The notes under the pieces are model-generated. The model saw only the letters and a program-made list of their open reading frames with translations. It ran no database searches and was not told the DNA's origin. A stretch of DNA of 64,000 nucleotides from contig NZ_AP014936.1 of assembly GCF_002355415.1 (NCBI RefSeq), forward strand, positions 2,666,001 through 2,730,000. The letters run 5' to 3'. The translations under genes were made by a program, and so were the position numbers. Within the stretch, counting starts at the first letter, position 1. Each line of letters starts with the position of its first letter. This DNA is from Sulfurifustis variabilis (GTDB lineage Bacteria; Pseudomonadota; Gammaproteobacteria; Acidiferrobacterales; Sulfurifustaceae). Of the stretch, positions 299 through 8,858 are shown one piece after another.

Positions 299-958
299 CT
301 AGAGACCAGTTGTTGCTGATATTAGAATCAATTCCTCTCTGGTACCGATTTTCTCTTGTTCGATAAGACTTCTTTCGTCCCTAATGCGTTCTTCTCGATA
401 TCCTTCGCGATCTTTTTGGCGCACCTCCGCAATCACCGCTTCGACATAGAGAGCACGAGAGCGAAGCCCAATGTTGTGGCTGTGGTACCCAACAACAACT
501 GAGAGAATGAAGGACACGGTGACCGCCATGCCTGCTGCTAACTCATTAAAGTCCGCTCCAAAGGTAACGTATGCGGCTATGATGAATACGATGAAAGCAA
601 GGAAGCTAGCAAGGTTGGAGACCATTTCTTGTTGTTTATTAAGAAAGGAACGAAGCTCCGCTGTGAAAGAGGTATTTGTCATGCAGATGGTTATCGACAA
701 AATAGCCAGTCCTATCACAAGCTGCTTGGTCTCAATCATCGGCTGCGATTTCGCTAGCAGGTAAGAAACCAGCGACATAATGGCAGTGATCAGACCAAAA
801 AAAACATTCCGGTATAACCAGTTCAACAAAGCAAATACGTGTTCCTTCGGAGAGGACGGGAACTCAGGGATAGAAGTAGTTGCGGGTGGCTCTATGCCCG
901 AAGCCTTTGAAGTATCAATCTCCATATAGCGTTCCCATTTGCAGATACATTGCAGCAC
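299..958 (-). CDS. Four-helix membrane protein of a defence island
   Basis: A 219-residue protein I do not recognise. It has a polar N-terminus, then four hydrophobic segments in two pairs (about residues 50-68, 78-96, 117-136 and 143-160). A highly charged, probably helical tail rich in Arg and Glu follows (about 175-205). An alternative start at 925 (MEIDTSKAS) has a GGGAA-like ribosome site; the 958 start has AGGGGG in front. It lies about 125 bp downstream of the HerA-type gene on the same strand and may be co-transcribed with the Dnd cluster. Small multi-helix membrane proteins next to defence modules are often membrane-damaging effectors, but that role is inferred from position only. 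Confidence 0.6.
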   Translation of the reverse strand: MLQCICKWERYMEIDTSKASGIEPPATTSIPEFPSSPKEHVFALLNWLYRNVFFGLITAIMSLVSYLLAKSQPMIETKQLVIGLAILSITICMTNTSFTAELRSFLNKQQEMVSNLASFLAFIVFIIAAYVTFGADFNELAAGMAVTVSFILSVVVGYHSHNIGLRSRALYVEAVIAEVRQKDREGYREERIRDERSLIEQEKIGTREELILISATTGL

Positions 959-1081: not shown

Positions 1082-2668
1082 TCATTTCCAGGACAATATT
1101 TTGCGTGCGTTCTGACCCGGAAACTTGACCAGGGCAATCCCTGGGGGAAGAGCGCGATCTGAGAAGTCCTCTATGCGCATGCGTCGGCCGAAGGCACCGT
1201 CCAATGTTTTTACGCTCGATGAGCTTAGCGAAAAGACCCCAACCGTTCCCATCTGCTCCAAGAAATCATCCTCTTCCTGGTCGAAATCATCCGCGCTTTG
1301 AGACAAGAGCATGACGATCCCGCCTTTAGACGCTGACTTTCTTACAAGCGAGCTAAGTGCTCCGTGCCGATAGCGCAAGATTTCGACTGCCTCATCGACA
1401 ATTAAGAGATGTCTCAACAAACGGTTGCCGGCTTTGTCTACGCCACTATCGGGCAGCGACATAAAGAATGAGTTGAGTGCGTCAAGAATCAAGAAGATAG
1501 CGAGCCGCTTCGGCTCGTCAGATGCGCTCCCGAAGCTGATAACCCACCTCTTTGAGAAAAATTCGGCCGGTGACATCGTCGGCCGCATCATATTCAGCGA
1601 CGTGATGGCGTTGAGTTTCGCACCAATACTGCCGATTGATTGGCGTGATTGCTCCGCTACGTCTGTAAGCGCCTGCAAAACATCGTCCAGGGTAATGGGT
1701 CGACGCTGTCCCCCGCGGCTTTCTAGCGCTCGTCTTCCTTCAAGTAGGGCCAAGACCGCCTGACGCAGTAGATCTAGTTTGATGTCACCTTTGGCCCGTA
1801 TGCATTTTTGAAAGGAGTCTTGGAACCCAATTGCAAGCTGCGCGAGTTGCTGTTCTTCAGCCGTCGGCGAAGACCAAAGAAAGTCAAGAGGAACCGGGAC
1901 TTTGGGTACATCCAGCGCGCGTATCCCGGGAAAAAACGCCTCTAGCGTTCGATCGCCCCATTCCGACTTGCGAACCAGTGCCCCGTCTTTTACGAACTCA
2001 CCTTTCGGGTCAATAAGTAACAGCGGGAGGTCCGCTGTTACTATCACCTGCCGGGCTATGTCTAATCCTGTCCGGGTCTTACCTGATCGGGTTTTGCCGA
2101 GAATCGCTAAGTGCGGGGAAACGCCTGGCCGATTAACGGTGTAGCTTAACTGTTCTCCCGAGTCAGGATCGATGCTTTCCGATCCGAAGCGAATGGAGAG
2201 GGCGCCCTCCTTTTCTTTGAACGTGTCGATGCTACCACTTGTTCGAGTGCCCGTAGGTACCATGCCTGCGAGTCTCACAACGAAATCCACGTCAGCTTTC
2301 TTCACGTCTTCGTAGTCTTGCTTGAGGAGCATTGCACCACGATGCCAATGTCCCTCGACTAAAGAGCGAAAACTCGCTGCGTCAGCAGGTGGCGCTTCCG
2401 AAGCAATGGCGATTAAGCAAGACCAGATATCAGCATCGTCACCAAACAGGTGGGTGCCCTCGATCGCGTTCCCCATCTCGGCATCTTGAGGAAGGCGGAT
2501 ATCGCCAGTGTTTAATTGCTCGGACAGGCTTCTCCCTATTGCGAGCTTCGCCACCGTGGCCTTATCCCCGGGGATGAGCGTGGACCGAAGATCACCGAGA
2601 AATTCCTCCGCTTCCTTGGTCGGGCGATAACGAAGACGATCAATTCGGGTCAAGTTAAATTCGGTCAT
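1082..2668 (-). CDS. DndE-like domain fused to HerA/FtsK-type ATPase
   Basis: A 528-residue protein. The C-terminal two thirds is a HerA/DUF87-type DNA-translocating ATPase: Walker A GKTRSGKT near residue 190, the IDPKGEF motif near 220, Walker B LLIVDEAVEIL near 425, and a sensor-like LLSQSADDF. The first roughly 135 residues resemble DndE: an N-terminal LRYRPTKEAEEFL segment, an AIGRSLSEQ helix, EMGNAIEG, and HWHRGAMLL. DndE is normally a separate protein of about 110-120 residues that binds nicked DNA in phosphorothioation. The gene starts 2 bp after dndD stops, so it is the last of four tightly packed genes. The ATPase call is firm; the DndE assignment rests on motif resemblance and needs a profile search. 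HerA-like pumps also occur in DNA-degrading defence systems such as DptH. Confidence 0.8.
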   Translation of the reverse strand: MTEFNLTRIDRLRYRPTKEAEEFLGDLRSTLIPGDKATVAKLAIGRSLSEQLNTGDIRLPQDAEMGNAIEGTHLFGDDADIWSCLIAIASEAPPADAASFRSLVEGHWHRGAMLLKQDYEDVKKADVDFVVRLAGMVPTGTRTSGSIDTFKEKEGALSIRFGSESIDPDSGEQLSYTVNRPGVSPHLAILGKTRSGKTRTGLDIARQVIVTADLPLLLIDPKGEFVKDGALVRKSEWGDRTLEAFFPGIRALDVPKVPVPLDFLWSSPTAEEQQLAQLAIGFQDSFQKCIRAKGDIKLDLLRQAVLALLEGRRALESRGGQRRPITLDDVLQALTDVAEQSRQSIGSIGAKLNAITSLNMMRPTMSPAEFFSKRWVISFGSASDEPKRLAIFLILDALNSFFMSLPDSGVDKAGNRLLRHLLIVDEAVEILRYRHGALSSLVRKSASKGGIVMLLSQSADDFDQEEDDFLEQMGTVGVFSLSSSSVKTLDGAFGRRMRIEDFSDRALPPGIALVKFPGQNARKILSWK

Positions 2669-2670
2669 AT

Positions 2671-4746
2671 TCAGGCGCCAAAATAGCTATCTTCGATCAC
2701 GGTTGATTCCCCGCTACCCTCTTCCTTGCTTTCGAAAGTCACTAGAAATGTCTTTAAAATCTTTGGATCGAGTCGCTCTCGGTAATAGTCTGATATCTCC
2801 TCGTCGTGCGACAGGAAGATCACTTGCCCCCGAGCGGCTTCGGCTACGTATCGCAAGACTCTTTCGCGATACTTGGAGTCCATGTTGCCAACAGGCGTGT
2901 CAATCACAATCGGTGCCTCCTGCTCTGACACATCAGCGACAGCAAGAGTGAAAGCTAATCCGAAAGCACGTTTCTGCGCTCCCGACAGACTGGAAACCAA
3001 TACGATTTCGCCCGACGGCCCCTCTAGTCTTGGTGGAGTATCGGGATCAAACCTCACGACAAAATTCCGATACTCGTCCGAAACCATTTGCCTGAAGTGT
3101 TCTGTGCACCTTTCCTCTAGCGATTCCTTGCAAAGCGGGACAAGATTGTCTTTTGCTTCGTCCACCGTCGCTCTCACTCGGTGCGCCACATCGAGTTTCT
3201 CTAGCACTGGCCTTTCGACTGCTCGACGTTTCTCCATCTGCCCTATTGAGCCCTTGAGGTCCCGGATTCTTTCTTGAAGTCCTCGTTCTCTGGTTTCTAG
3301 GCCAAGCAATTCCGAATCAATCGATTTAGCGGTTTCTCGAGTTTCGTCAACCGATTTCGTGAGCGCCGCGAGCTGTGGTTCTATGTCCTTAATTCGCTCG
3401 TACTTTCGTTCTGTTTCTCTTCGTCTCGTAACAGTGTTATCCCAACGAATTGCAGCGTCGGCTAGCGCGCCTCCGCCGATCGCCTGACAACGTCCAAGCT
3501 TACTCAATACCGCTGCGCGATCCGCCTCTCGGAGAAAATGAAGTTTATATTCCTCGGCGCATCCGTCTGGCGGCGGACTCCACAATGCCTCGAGAGCCTT
3601 TTCCAGTTTGCTTCGCAGCTGATGGATCTGCTGCTCGCTAAGAGGCGGCTCTACATCACCTGCCCCCTTGGTCGGCAGCACAGACTCAATAATTTTTGAG
3701 GCCTTGCCACTCGCTTCTTCCTTGAGAATTAGCCACCGATCCCGAATTTGCTCAGCACGCAGGTTTGATCGAAGTAACTCGATATTGCGGCTCATAGCTA
3801 AAGGCAGCGCAATAGAGGCTAAGCCCGTAATCAGCTCCTGCTTAACGGCTGCTTCCTCGGACTGTAATGCCGCCAGTGTGCGAGCGTACTCTTCGATATC
3901 GGCCGTCGAGTCACCTAATAGCTGCCGCAAATCATTCAACAGTCGCTGATGGTCCGCATCTGTCGCATCCATTTGCTTCCGCTTCTTGGTCAGTTCGTTT
4001 TCTATTTCTTTCAACTGATCCTTGGCTTCTTCGAGCTCCTGACGTTTCTGGTCTAGCTCGTCAATTCGTACGTTCCCTGTCTCGCGGCGCAAATTAGTCG
4101 TCTCGTTCTGTATAAACGTTCGGAGGCTATCGCTTAACCTGTCGAGAATCCCAGTTCCATAAAGCGTGTTAACCGCATCCAGAAGAGCTCTGTGACCCGC
4201 GGCATCAACCCGCTCTTGTGCCTGTTCCCCGTCAAAAAAGAAGCATGCCATTACGTTCCAGGGAAAAAGAAGATCCGAAATCTTGTCATTGGCGTCCTGC
4301 CAGGTGGGATAGATTTTCTTTTGCGAGTTGACTTCAATTAGGACCTCTTCGCCGTCCCTGCTGTTCAGATCGCGAATCCTTCCACCTTTGTTGAAGTTCC
4401 AGCGACGTTGGATAAGAATCGTGTCGCCTTCGTTCTCAAACCGAAGTGACACTGAACAATGTGGTTCGTCCTGGCGTCTTGCGGGTCGATGGATTATCTG
4501 CTCCATCAGACTCTTGTAATTTCGATTCTGATCCTCATCTATTCCGGATAACCGTACCCCTTCAATCAAATGCATAGCCTCTCGCCCGAAGAGACCAAGA
4601 TAGAGTGCTATCAAGAGGGAGGTCTTTCCCGTTCCGTTCTGTGCACCGACGAGAATAATGTTTTTGCGAGAGCCAGGTCTCGGTAGGGTAAATATGGCAT
4701 TCCGATAGCTTCGCCAATTTCGTACATGCACTTCCTTAAGAAACAT
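2671..4746 (-). CDS. dndD: DNA phosphorothioation ATPase DndD
   Basis: A 691-residue SMC/Rad50-like ATPase, close to the usual DndD length. Walker A is GAQNGTGKT (residues 34-42). A long charged coiled-coil centre covers about 200-560. The ABC signature-like SSLSGAQKRAFGLA, Walker B APIVIDTPVGNMD and the H-loop VIFLSHDEE are near the C-terminus. DndD is thought to power DNA remodelling or nicking for sulfur insertion by DndC. Its start overlaps the small upstream gene by 11 bp, indicating translational coupling. GC content is below that of the flanking chromosome, consistent with acquisition by transfer. An RloC-like or RecF-like ATPase is less likely given the DndC partner. Confidence 0.93.
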   Translation of the reverse strand: MFLKEVHVRNWRSYRNAIFTLPRPGSRKNIILVGAQNGTGKTSLLIALYLGLFGREAMHLIEGVRLSGIDEDQNRNYKSLMEQIIHRPARRQDEPHCSVSLRFENEGDTILIQRRWNFNKGGRIRDLNSRDGEEVLIEVNSQKKIYPTWQDANDKISDLLFPWNVMACFFFDGEQAQERVDAAGHRALLDAVNTLYGTGILDRLSDSLRTFIQNETTNLRRETGNVRIDELDQKRQELEEAKDQLKEIENELTKKRKQMDATDADHQRLLNDLRQLLGDSTADIEEYARTLAALQSEEAAVKQELITGLASIALPLAMSRNIELLRSNLRAEQIRDRWLILKEEASGKASKIIESVLPTKGAGDVEPPLSEQQIHQLRSKLEKALEALWSPPPDGCAEEYKLHFLREADRAAVLSKLGRCQAIGGGALADAAIRWDNTVTRRRETERKYERIKDIEPQLAALTKSVDETRETAKSIDSELLGLETRERGLQERIRDLKGSIGQMEKRRAVERPVLEKLDVAHRVRATVDEAKDNLVPLCKESLEERCTEHFRQMVSDEYRNFVVRFDPDTPPRLEGPSGEIVLVSSLSGAQKRAFGLAFTLAVADVSEQEAPIVIDTPVGNMDSKYRERVLRYVAEAARGQVIFLSHDEEISDYYRERLDPKILKTFLVTFESKEEGSGESTVIEDSYFGA

Positions 4747-4960
4747 CGCGGACCCCGGCCTGGTGTTCTTCGATGAAGTCGCTTATTGCGGCACTGAACT
4801 CTTGTGAGATTCCCACCTGCCGTCCTCGGCCCAAATTATCTCGCTGAATTTCAATCAGGCTGCGGAGTAGGTCGAGACTGACGTTGTGTTCCTGACAAAT
4901 TCGTTGAAGCACGTTTTTTGCCTTTTTGTCCGCAAGCAGCGGCAACGCTCTACGTGTCAT
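4736..4960 (-). CDS. Small Dnd-associated helical protein
   Basis: A 74-residue, mostly helical protein (LLADKKAKNVLQRICQE, then LDLLRSLIEIQRDN) placed between dndC and dndD. It overlaps dndC by 4 bp and dndD by 11 bp. It is too short for DndE and shows none of that family's basic surface motifs. It resembles the roughly 75-residue products that databases label DNA modification system-associated small protein; this is from memory and unverified. The tight overlaps argue that it is a real gene and probably a subunit or adaptor of the DndC-DndD machinery. Its function is unknown. Confidence 0.75.
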   Translation of the reverse strand: MTRRALPLLADKKAKNVLQRICQEHNVSLDLLRSLIEIQRDNLGRGRQVGISQEFSAAISDFIEEHQAGVRDVS

Positions 4961-6081
4961 CTCCCCTCCCCGATAAGTTGGAGCAAGCGATTTGCTCTAT
5001 TCAGAACGTGTTGGGACGCATCGTCTCGCCAAATTTCTTCGATGCGGCGTATTTCAGCTGATGAAATAAGTTGTACCTTCACCTCGTCTTGCAGAGCGAG
5101 CAATCTGTCCAGCACGGTCTTCCTTGCGTCGAACTTAAGCGGGCCCAGTCCAGCTTGCCCGTTTCGACGTTCCGTCATCCGGTTTTCTTCGGTGTAACAG
5201 AAATCTTTGAGCCAATCCCTGAAATTGGCCATCGGCTCTAGGCGCTCAAACCCCTTCTCCATGGCATTCCTGAACGACTTATCTTTGTCGACAACCGTGC
5301 AGGTCCAACAACCAAAACGGATCGAATTGCTGCCGCAGGACGGTTGAGTATCGGTATCTATAACAACCGGACATTCCCCGCCCGTGGCGTCTCGATACAA
5401 TTTCATTAGCGCTTGGTGGGACCCTGCCCAGGGTGGCGCGCAAGCAAATAAGTATTCCCAAACTTCATCTGTCGTCAGCTCGAGAATCGGGCGGAAGACA
5501 AAACAGCCGGGCAGGTCGTTATGCGGGTTTAACCGGCCGGTCCCATCGTACCGCTTTGCCGATTTTGCGCGGGCGGTCGACTCGGACCGTCTGACCCCAA
5601 GAAGGAGGATTACTTCTCCGCTCTCTGTAATACGCTCCCGGATATAGTCAGTCGTTGGCCGAATCTTCATTCGATCGGTACACCAACGGAAAAACCGAGT
5701 GGGCGGCGGATAACCGCGGCCAATAAGGTTCACCCAAAAGGTCTGGTCTACTAGTGGTGTCGTTTTATGGATTTCGATCGGCAGACTGAGGTCCGGAAGA
5801 GACGTGGAGAGCGCAGAAAGAAGGGATTCCACATATGTTTGAACGATTGGCGATTCAACAAGCGTATCGTTTGCAATTACATGAACTCGGCGGGAACGTT
5901 CCGACCATGGAAGTTCGAGAAGCGTTTCAACAACTAGCTGCAGGACAAGCGTGGAATCCTTTCCCCCCGAGAATCCGATTATCCACGGCTTGTTGTGTGC
6001 AGCGCGATACTCCTCCTTAATGTCTGTCTTGATGGCTAGGATCTTCGCGGATAGTTCATCTATCTCTGGTCCGCCCTTCAT
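4957..6081 (-). CDS. dndC: DNA phosphorothioation sulfurtransferase-like DndC
   Basis: A 374-residue PAPS-reductase-like PP-loop protein. The ATP-binding SGGKDS loop is at residues 38-43. Cysteines able to hold the DndC iron-sulfur cluster lie in RFFRWCTDRMK and in CGSNSIRFGCWTC. DndC acts with DndD, DndE and a cysteine desulfurase to replace a non-bridging backbone oxygen with sulfur. I chose the ATG at 6081 because a GGAGC ribosome site precedes it; an in-frame ATG at 6138 would add 19 residues. It is the first gene of the minus-strand cluster. No dndA (desulfurase) or dndB (repressor) is visible here, so sulfur delivery must come from elsewhere, for example IscS. Confidence 0.95.
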   Translation of the reverse strand: MKGGPEIDELSAKILAIKTDIKEEYRAAHNKPWIIGFSGGKDSTLVLQLVVETLLELPWSERSRRVHVIANDTLVESPIVQTYVESLLSALSTSLPDLSLPIEIHKTTPLVDQTFWVNLIGRGYPPPTRFFRWCTDRMKIRPTTDYIRERITESGEVILLLGVRRSESTARAKSAKRYDGTGRLNPHNDLPGCFVFRPILELTTDEVWEYLFACAPPWAGSHQALMKLYRDATGGECPVVIDTDTQPSCGSNSIRFGCWTCTVVDKDKSFRNAMEKGFERLEPMANFRDWLKDFCYTEENRMTERRNGQAGLGPLKFDARKTVLDRLLALQDEVKVQLISSAEIRRIEEIWRDDASQHVLNRANRLLQLIGEGR

Positions 6082-6294
6082 CTTGCTCCGCTCTTTTTGG
6101 ATCGTTGCTGGGAAGGCTGGCCCCCGAGAACTGAGCATCCAGCCGGCCTATTTCCCCGCCAGGTGGCGGGAAACTGTAACACAAAGGACGCGGACTGAGC
6201 GCCGCCTTTATCTGCTGGCTCGCAAATCCCGGCCACTCGGACGGTGCGCCTAAGGGATTAATTCGACGTGCTTTTACTGCGCAAAACCAAAGTC

Positions 6295-6505: not shown

Positions 6506-6518
6506 GTGACTATAGTCC
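6506..6518 (+). promoter_or_regulatory. C-box-like half operator upstream of controller gene
   Basis: GTGACTATAGTCC is identical to the left arm of the palindrome at 6862-6889 and contains the 10-bp palindrome GACTATAGTC (6508-6517). It sits 57 bp before the likely controller start. No well-matched second half-site follows it. Controller proteins of restriction-modification systems bind GACT-AGTC type boxes, so autoregulation is likely. Confidence 0.65.
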
Positions 6519-6574
6519 GTCGACCGACGAGACAGACCTGCCCTACCTTACCCCACCTCTTCCGGGGCAAAACG

Positions 6575-6808
6575 TTGAAAGTCGAGAAAGCGTTCGCTCT
6601 TGTTCTTCGGGATATGAGAAAGAAGAAGAACCTGTCTCAGGAGCAATTGGCTCTTAACAGTAATCTCGACCGAACGTTTATTTCGCTTCTGGAACGCGGA
6701 CTGCGGCAGCCCTCCCTTACCACCATCTTCCAACTGTCCCGCGCACTCGATACGTCGGCTACCGAGTTGATTTCGACCGTCGAGACGAAGGTCCACGCGC
6801 GGTCCTGA
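6575..6808 (+). CDS. Restriction-modification type controller (C) protein, Xre family
   Basis: From a TTG start at 6575 (GGGGC in front) this gives 77 residues, the normal size of C proteins such as C.Esp1396I (79). The helix-turn-helix spans LSQEQLALNSNLDRTFISLLERG, and the SNLDRTFIS recognition-helix region is typical of C proteins. Earlier in-frame starts would run through the operator at 6506 and are unlikely. No restriction or methyltransferase gene of an RM system is adjacent: Dnd lies to the left and a CsrA-like gene to the right. Operators with the same core occur before this gene and before csrA, so it probably regulates itself and csrA. A plain Xre regulator is the alternative. Confidence 0.85.
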   Translation: MKVEKAFALVLRDMRKKKNLSQEQLALNSNLDRTFISLLERGLRQPSLTTIFQLSRALDTSATELISTVETKVHARS

Positions 6809-8194: not shown

Positions 8195-8533
8195 TTAGCC
8201 AGCGGCACGGGAGCGTCCGGAGGCGGCAATTACCCGCGCAAGATCACGTTTGTTCGCGCCAAGCGAAAAGAACGAGCGCACGATGAGATCAAGCGATACG
8301 GAGGGATCTCCGGCCTCGATCTTGGCGACGCGCGACTGGCTGGACTTCAGGTGCCGTGCCAGCTCCACCTGCGTCATGTTGCGCGCCTCTCGGCGCTCGC
8401 GCAGCTTGCGTCCGAGCTGTTGTTTGAGCTCGATGTAGCGCGACTCCTCGGGGGAGAGGCCGAGAAAATCGTTCGCGTTACCGACTTTCCATCCTTTGCG
8501 CTCCAACCGCTTTCTCTTGGCTCTATTCCTCAT
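8195..8533 (-). CDS. higA: HigA-type Xre antitoxin
   Basis: A 112-residue protein from the ATG at 8533 (MRNRAKRKRLERKGW). A helix-turn-helix covers NMTQVELARHLKSSQSRVAKIEAGD in the middle. Its start overlaps the end of the upstream toxin gene by 11 bp. Toxin-first gene order, a Gp49-type toxin and an Xre antitoxin define a HigBA module. The antitoxin neutralises the toxin and represses the operon, most likely through the palindrome at 8869-8896. Confidence 0.88.
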   Translation of the reverse strand: MRNRAKRKRLERKGWKVGNANDFLGLSPEESRYIELKQQLGRKLRERREARNMTQVELARHLKSSQSRVAKIEAGDPSVSLDLIVRSFFSLGANKRDLARVIAASGRSRAAG

Positions 8534-8858
8534 ACAACCCCAATCTGCGCTTATACACCTCAATGACCTCGGCTGGCGTCTGGCGCGTGCTGTTCTTGAA
8601 GACTTCCAGTATCACGATGGCGTCCGGATCGATTCGATACACAATACGCCAGCTCATACGCTCATCATTGGCCCGCAACTCGTGGCATCGGGGTCCGATC
8701 GACGGCATCGGCCGCGAGTGCGGCATTCCGATCCTGTCTCCTCTCTGCAAACGGCGGAGGAGAAATCCCGCTTCCAATCGGGCAGCCGGCGAGAAGGGCG
8801 GCGTTTTCACCTCTCCCTTGAGCCAGACTAGAGGCTTGTCCTTATTCTTCTCTCCCAT
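8523..8858 (-). CDS. higB: HigB/Gp49-like (RelE superfamily) toxin
   Basis: A 111-residue protein with the phage Gp49-like domain: RRLQRGDRIGMPHSRPMPSIG, HELRANDERMSWRIVYRID and IVILEVFKNSTRQTP. The family comprises ribosome-dependent mRNA interferases. It is first in the two-gene operon, and a perfect operator palindrome lies 11 bp upstream of the start codon. Nothing looks truncated. Confidence 0.9.
   Translation of the reverse strand: MGEKNKDKPLVWLKGEVKTPPFSPAARLEAGFLLRRLQRGDRIGMPHSRPMPSIGPRCHELRANDERMSWRIVYRIDPDAIVILEVFKNSTRQTPAEVIEVYKRRLGLYEE

Follow-up and report, generated by a model that had tools for sequence, protein, structure and literature searches.

Dnd-type gene clusters in which the DndE component is joined to a motor ATPase raise the question of what a motor contributes to DNA phosphorothioate (PT) modification, and whether such a unit could both mark DNA and act on DNA that lacks the mark. 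We analyzed this question for a four-gene locus of Sulfurifustis variabilis that lies within a window of 64,000 nt (positions 2,666,001-2,730,000 of NZ_AP014936.1); coordinates below are window positions unless another locus is named.

Organization and genomic setting of the cluster

Four minus-strand open reading frames (ORFs) that encode a DndC-like protein, a small protein, a DndD-like ATPase and a DndE-HerA fusion are packed, in this order, between positions 6081 and 1082 (Table 1). The genes for DndC and the small protein overlap by 4 bp, those for the small protein and DndD overlap by 11 bp, and a gap of 2 bp separates the DndD gene from the fusion gene. The GC content of 1082-6081 is 0.52 versus 0.69 in the part of the window beyond 9 kb, and this low GC relative to the surroundings suggests an island-like region that was acquired horizontally. 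The first-pass annotation, made from the sequence alone, had described a compact Dnd-type cluster in lower-GC DNA, and this description holds, with all four ORFs present.

Table 1. Genes of the cluster and of its surroundings in the window
Feature	Coordinates	Strand	Matches and remarks
DndC-like PP-loop sulfurtransferase, 374 aa	4957..6081	-	TIGR03183, SGGKDS, five cysteines
Small protein, Sp-DndD family, 74 aa	4736..4960	-	PF20306
DndD-like coiled-coil ABC ATPase, 691 aa	2671..4746	-	TIGR03185, PADLOC PbeC/DndD
DndE-HerA fusion, 528 aa, single frame	1082..2668	-	PF08870, DUF87, structural matches
Hydrophobic 219-aa protein, 123 bp downstream of the fusion	299..958	-	no convincing family
XRE-type HTH regulator	6506..6808		divergent from the cluster
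CsrA-family protein, 70 aa	6931..7143		longer than the Pfam model (53 positions)
HTH antitoxin	8195..8563		toxin-antitoxin-like pair (8195-8858)
Gp49/ParE-type toxin	8523..8858		toxin-antitoxin-like pair (8195-8858)

On the other side of the divergent XRE regulator, the cluster is followed by a gene for a CsrA-family protein and a toxin-antitoxin-like pair. IS3-type transposase ORFs (L010, 17741-18964) adjoin the window on the left, beside the low-GC cluster, and end about 40 bp from the window edge. No Rfam match was detected in the window or in its left flank. The hydrophobic protein encoded downstream of the fusion is possibly a passenger or an effector of the cluster; it has no detectable relation to the membrane protein encoded downstream of one of the related units (L021), and so was rejected as a conserved partner.

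The DndC-like protein, the small protein and the DndD-like ATPase

The DndC-like protein scores 354.1 bits with TIGR03183 (cut-off 290.4), contains the SGGKDS motif at residues 38-43, and shares this motif along with five cysteines (134, 237, 249, 258 and 261) with all 14 DndC proteins compared, three canonical ones included. Its frame is open to position 6138, and the DndC profiles do not start before residue 27 of this extended version. A sequence search of the PDB with this protein produced no match. The cluster contains the sole DndC match and the sole Sp-DndD match in the genome. At 374 aa, this DndC is markedly shorter than the canonical DndCs compared (493-544 aa), with a C-terminal tail of about 120 aa missing.

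The small protein belongs to the Sp-DndD family (PF20306, 40.8 bits, cut-off 27.2) and had been listed in the first-pass annotation as a 74-residue protein. A profile built only from such small proteins matches canonical DndC at residues 400-450 and 419-464 (E ~1e-11, in a search of three sequences of which the third, L044, was hardly matched) as well as the DndC of E. coli at residues 437-484, and PF20306 itself matches an archaeal canonical DndC at residues 418-462 with 38.4 bits, above the cut-off. In E. coli B7A, residues 433-482 of DndC dock on the globular domain of DndD, according to an AlphaFold3 prediction and supporting pull-down results (PMC12193691); the numbering of this segment and of the matched E. 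coli residues may differ slightly between strains. Because the small-protein profile and PF20306 both match canonical DndC tails, the former at the DndD interface reported for E. coli, the small protein is, as judged by profile comparison, the DndD-docking C-terminal segment of DndC encoded by a gene of its own, that is, DndC is split in this cluster, and there is no need to view the small protein as an extra or new component. Small proteins of this kind are found also in loci that combine the DndD and DndE-HerA genes with an N6-adenine methylase gene in place of dndC (group B, see below), which suggests that the small protein could be a general adaptor of DndD.

The third protein of the cluster aligns over its full length with TIGR03185 but, at 189.2 bits, scores below the equivalog cut-off of 245.85, hence the designation DndD-like. 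The best PADLOC models for this protein are PbeC (337 bits) and DndD (235 bits). The ATPase signature LSG is located at residue 587 and the Walker B motif VIDTP at residue 614.

The DndE-HerA fusion and the exchange of motors

The fusion protein consists of a DndE domain (residues 1-137, approximately 2258-2668 in the window) and a HerA/DndH-type motor (residues ~147-528). The profile comparison proposed in the first-pass annotation was clear for the motor, with 27.4 bits for DUF87 against a cut-off of 23.2, and marginal for the N-terminal part, where PF08870 (DndE) aligned with residues 17-120 at 24.1 bits, 0.9 bit short of the cut-off of 25. With the same Pfam model, five HerA-type homologues score 27.8-53.6 bits, and FtsK-type fusions score 21.4, 27.5 and 35.4 bits. 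The canonical DndE equivalog TIGR03184 yields 19.4 bits vs a cut-off of 71.85, and the domain is fused to the motor rather than being a separate protein. Modeled with AF2, residues 1-137 (mean pLDDT 88.4) display the DndE fold of two ribbon-helix-helix units, and the top matches of the model among PDB structures are those of DndE (7x4e, Z 12.7; 4lrv, Z 11.4; 5wtu, Z 10.8), followed by chains of the F-plasmid relaxosome (8.7); this agrees with the resemblance between DndE and the F-plasmid protein TraY that is reported in PMC10853773. Given that solved DndE structures match the model first and that homologues exceed the Pfam cut-off, the DndE identity of the N-terminus, as modeled, can be considered secure.

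The full-length model of the fusion has a mean pLDDT of 75.6, and a PDB sequence search with the fusion produced no match. The best structural match for motor residues 152-528 is the C-terminal domain of DndH (7es4, Z 35.6 over 350 residues), followed by VirB4 (26.1), TrwB (22.7) and HerA (21.2). The Walker A motif GKTRSGKT (191-198), the Walker B motif LLIVDEA (421-427, with D425 and E426), Q457 and R443 are invariant in 13 homologues, so that both the fold and the catalytic residues place the motor in the HerA/FtsK superfamily, DndH type. With DndH as its nearest solved structure, the fusion joins DndE to the type of motor that is found in the restriction protein. Many unrelated records contain full-length homologues (about 500-517 aa) in which both domains are present, which rules out a chance, frame or assembly accident; together with the structural matches, these homologues bear out the identification of the fourth gene as a DndE-HerA fusion.

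Six loci (group A: L016, L017, L020, L021, L024 and L025), one of them on the megaplasmid of M. extorquens AM1 (L016), contain these four genes in identical order, with a small protein of 66-70 aa following DndC. The gene order is also the same in three plasmid-borne loci, from Aureimonas (L040), Burkholderia glumae (L041) and Rhizobium phaseoli (L042) (group C), where the RefSeq annotation reads dndC, DNA modification system-associated small protein, dndD and 'DNA translocase FtsK'. Thus, the cluster recurs as a unit, and the recurrence of the four-gene order, in alphaproteobacteria and on plasmids, implies that the arrangement is more than chance. The identity between the window proteins and those of group A is 51-56% for DndC and 26-34% for DndD and the fusion; for group C, it is ~46% for DndC and 32-36% for the DndE domain. 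Judging by these comparisons, the S. variabilis cluster is a divergent new member of the DndE-motor fusion group. Among 369 genomes of the class, a relative of the fusion was detected at E<=1e-10 in just four, S. variabilis included; in 398 genomes of the phylum, there were three matches besides that of the window, in frames of 986-1796 aa, lengths that make them probably DndH-like proteins and not fusions of this kind. No relatives were found in viral contigs and phage records.

The neighborhoods of these units are diverse. An Mrr-type restriction endonuclease is encoded one gene downstream of the unit in L017 (4815-5756), and GmrSD is encoded about 6.6 kb from the unit in L016. In L021 (11450-13227) and L025 (8898-10651), the fusion gene is directly followed by genes for a small protein, which in L021 is a membrane protein, and for a DndB-family protein. 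A gene for a TusA-family sulfur carrier comes after the DndE-FtsK fusion gene in L040 (12929-13165) and L042 (12935-13138); DGQHR-type (DndB-family) proteins are encoded near both units, and an HNH protein in L042. In L024, a resolvase gene lies upstream of the four genes, and neither a nuclease nor another Dnd gene was recognized adjoining them. The nuclease neighbors therefore vary from locus to locus. On a Mesorhizobium amorphae plasmid (L038, 6811-16657), two modules are stacked, the first encoding a desulfurase, DndC, DndD and a motor-free DndE, and the second a small protein, another DndD-like ATPase and a fusion of DndE to FtsK. Decayed copies are seen in L023 (9892-10975; DndC and fusion fragments without DndD), L036 (6938-10456) and L037 (10010-11535), the latter two with split frames.

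In group B (L019, L026, L031, L032, L034, L035 and L036), an N6-adenine methylase gene precedes the genes for DndD and DndE-HerA, and no DndC relative was found in these loci. The methylases are large and well conserved, 66-80% identical to the L032 copy, with the L036 copy split into two frames, and an HsdS-like specificity subunit was detected, at the threshold used, in all these loci except L035. In L032 (1892-10318) and the homologous loci, the DndD/DndE-HerA pair is sometimes accompanied by a small protein or a RAMA-domain protein. This sister lineage thus pairs DndD and DndE-HerA with an N6-methylase in place of DndC.

The motors of group C contain FtsK_SpoIIIE with FtsK_alpha, and align with those of group A at 19-28 bits, which is the noise level, compared to 64-117 bits for the alignments between groups A and B. 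The trees join the groups differently: group A clusters with group C and with the DndD/motor-free DndE pair of L038 both in the DndD tree (clade support 100; A+B rejected, p-AU 0.00015) and in the DndE-domain tree (support 93; A+B rejected, p-AU 0.013), these being quick searches, with long branches in the DndD tree and the A+B grouping named after the motor comparison. A single, simple inheritance of the HerA and FtsK fusions was rejected on this discrepancy. Because the DndE and DndD trees unite A with C whereas the motors of A align only with those of B, a single DndC/DndD/DndE lineage carries DndE with a HerA motor, with an FtsK motor or with none, that is, the motors appear to have been exchanged; the quick trees give no order of gain, loss and replacement.

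Relation to known systems and predicted function

Fusions of HerA/FtsK domains to DndE in a subset of Dnd systems are reported by Rakesh, Aravind and Krishnan (2024, PMC10853773, who cite their ref. 24), so the fusion is already known in silico, and together with the RefSeq plasmid loci, this report rules out a unique or previously unreported fusion. Like the fusion described here, the reported ones carry DndE and a HerA/FtsK motor on a single chain, beside a DndD-type ABC ATPase; the group C loci share the gene order and differ in the FtsK-type motor with FtsK-alpha and in the TusA gene that follows two of them. The literature searched yielded no experimental paper on a DndE-motor fusion. The main text of PMC10853773 devotes one sentence to the fusion and mentions neither a DndC in two parts nor an exchange of motors on DndE nor four genes that form a unit by themselves; going by the texts covered, the split-DndC reading and motor exchange on DndE have apparently not been stated before. 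The cluster does differ from canonical DndBCDE/DndFGH, as the first-pass annotation had suggested, but the fusion itself is not new.

The cluster shares with canonical DndABCDE the DndC chemistry and the DndD and DndE components, but the canonical systems have a full-length DndC, tail included, and a separate DndE, and often contain dndB and dndA. Genome-wide, in the single contig of 3.96 Mb and by single-family searches, no match was found to DndB (PF14072) or to DndH (one DndH profile), both at E<=0.001, or to DGQHR, GmrSD_N or Mrr_cat. These results extend to DndB and DndH in the whole genome the earlier statement that dndA, dndB and dndFGH are missing from the window, where we likewise found none. 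Cysteine desulfurases are encoded outside the cluster only: a NifS/DndA/IscS-like protein (L003; NifS 446 bits and DndA 393 bits, both below the equivalog cut-offs) and a SufS (L002; 610 bits, above the cut-off) encoded beside other SUF-type genes. Given that IscS is reported to replace DndA (PMC11662687; PMC10853773), a dedicated dndA is not required.

DndFGH, which is reported to nick DNA in a manner coupled to translocation and to have an ATPase that PT represses (PMC11662687), resembles the cluster in the motor domain, but DndF, DndG, a restriction endonuclease and inactive methylase domains are missing from the window cluster, where the motor sits on DndE. PbeABCD, one of the CxC-ATPase systems, similarly combines a coiled-coil ABC ATPase with a small protein and a relative of DndE; however, the small protein of the CxC systems is PF20304 (Sp-CxC) as opposed to PF20306, and in PbeABCD the counterpart of DndE (PbeD) is not fused, with a helicase-nuclease, PbeA, as a further component (PMC10853773). 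No ORF of the PbeA type was seen beside the S. variabilis cluster. The similarity to MADS is that the PADLOC mad8 (HerA-like) profile matches the motor (38.5 bits), but the window cluster lacks a methylase and other mad genes were not seen.

We predict, with a probability of about 0.6 and on the basis of sequence comparison, that the four genes comprise a horizontally acquired PT modification unit with a motor-bearing DndE. A housekeeping cysteine desulfurase of the NifS/IscS or SufS type would feed sulfur to DndC, the small protein would couple DndC to DndD, and DndD together with the DndE domain would locate the target sequence. The HerA part could form a ring on DNA and translocate, loading or moving the modification complex, with hexamer formation and translocation predicted from the fold of the motor. 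The most likely direct output would be marking of the host DNA; a role in defense is likely too, but would require action on unmarked DNA, either by the motor or by a nuclease encoded elsewhere. Against PT modification counts the distance of DndD and DndE from the canonical equivalogs (the cut-offs of TIGR03185 and TIGR03184 are missed), and since the related group B core sits beside an N6-methylase, the core alone does not prove PT.

The idea that one unit both modifies and restricts was strengthened in one respect, the joining of a restriction-type motor to the modification side, because the nearest solved structure of this motor is that of the DndH C-terminus; restriction itself is hypothetical, as profile searches recognized no nuclease domain in the four proteins and the nuclease neighbors differ between loci. 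A self-contained PT restriction-modification system, in which the DndE-anchored DndH-type motor would block, strip or hand over unmarked invading DNA and be stopped by host PT in the way that PT represses DndFGH, is a doubtful although serious candidate. It is consistent with the DndH-like structure of the motor, the PT-repressed ATPase of the DndFGH nickase (PMC11662687), the recurrence of the group A unit without a fixed nuclease partner and the lack of matches to DndB, DndH, DGQHR, GmrSD and Mrr in the single-family searches of the genome. On the other hand, no nuclease domain was recognized, a motor alone need not restrict, and the motor-free DndE of the same lineage in L038 implies that the modification chassis can do without the motor. 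That the modification instead serves a separate restriction partner encoded elsewhere in the genome would fit the varied neighbors of the relatives (Mrr in L017, GmrSD in L016, DndB-family proteins in L021, L025, L040 and L042, HNH in L042), but is improbable given that the families searched in S. variabilis, DndH, GmrSD_N, Mrr_cat and DGQHR/DndB, produced no match. Least probable is a decaying or inactive island gene set, which the low GC, the adjacent transposase ORFs and the degraded copies in other genomes (L023, L036, L037) might suggest; all four frames are uninterrupted, with overlaps or a minimal gap between them, and the catalytic residues are conserved.

Taken as a PT modification unit with a motor-bearing DndE, the cluster also admits a broader and rather unlikely scenario, in which DndE would be a docking platform for exchanged motors, the DndC tail or small protein a general DndD adaptor, and the four-gene unit a complete PT system that contains no nuclease, is driven by its motor, marks the DNA of the host and by translocation hinders invading DNA without the mark. 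For the PF20306 small protein, the analysis provides a specific function that is open to testing, that of the DndC part which docks on DndD. One question in the phosphorothioate field is what makes DndH-type motors pass from restriction modules to modification modules or the reverse. Nature offers the chassis in versions with a HerA motor, with an FtsK motor and without a motor, along with a sister core that has methyl in place of sulfur chemistry, and comparing these versions directly is a way to test what the motor does.
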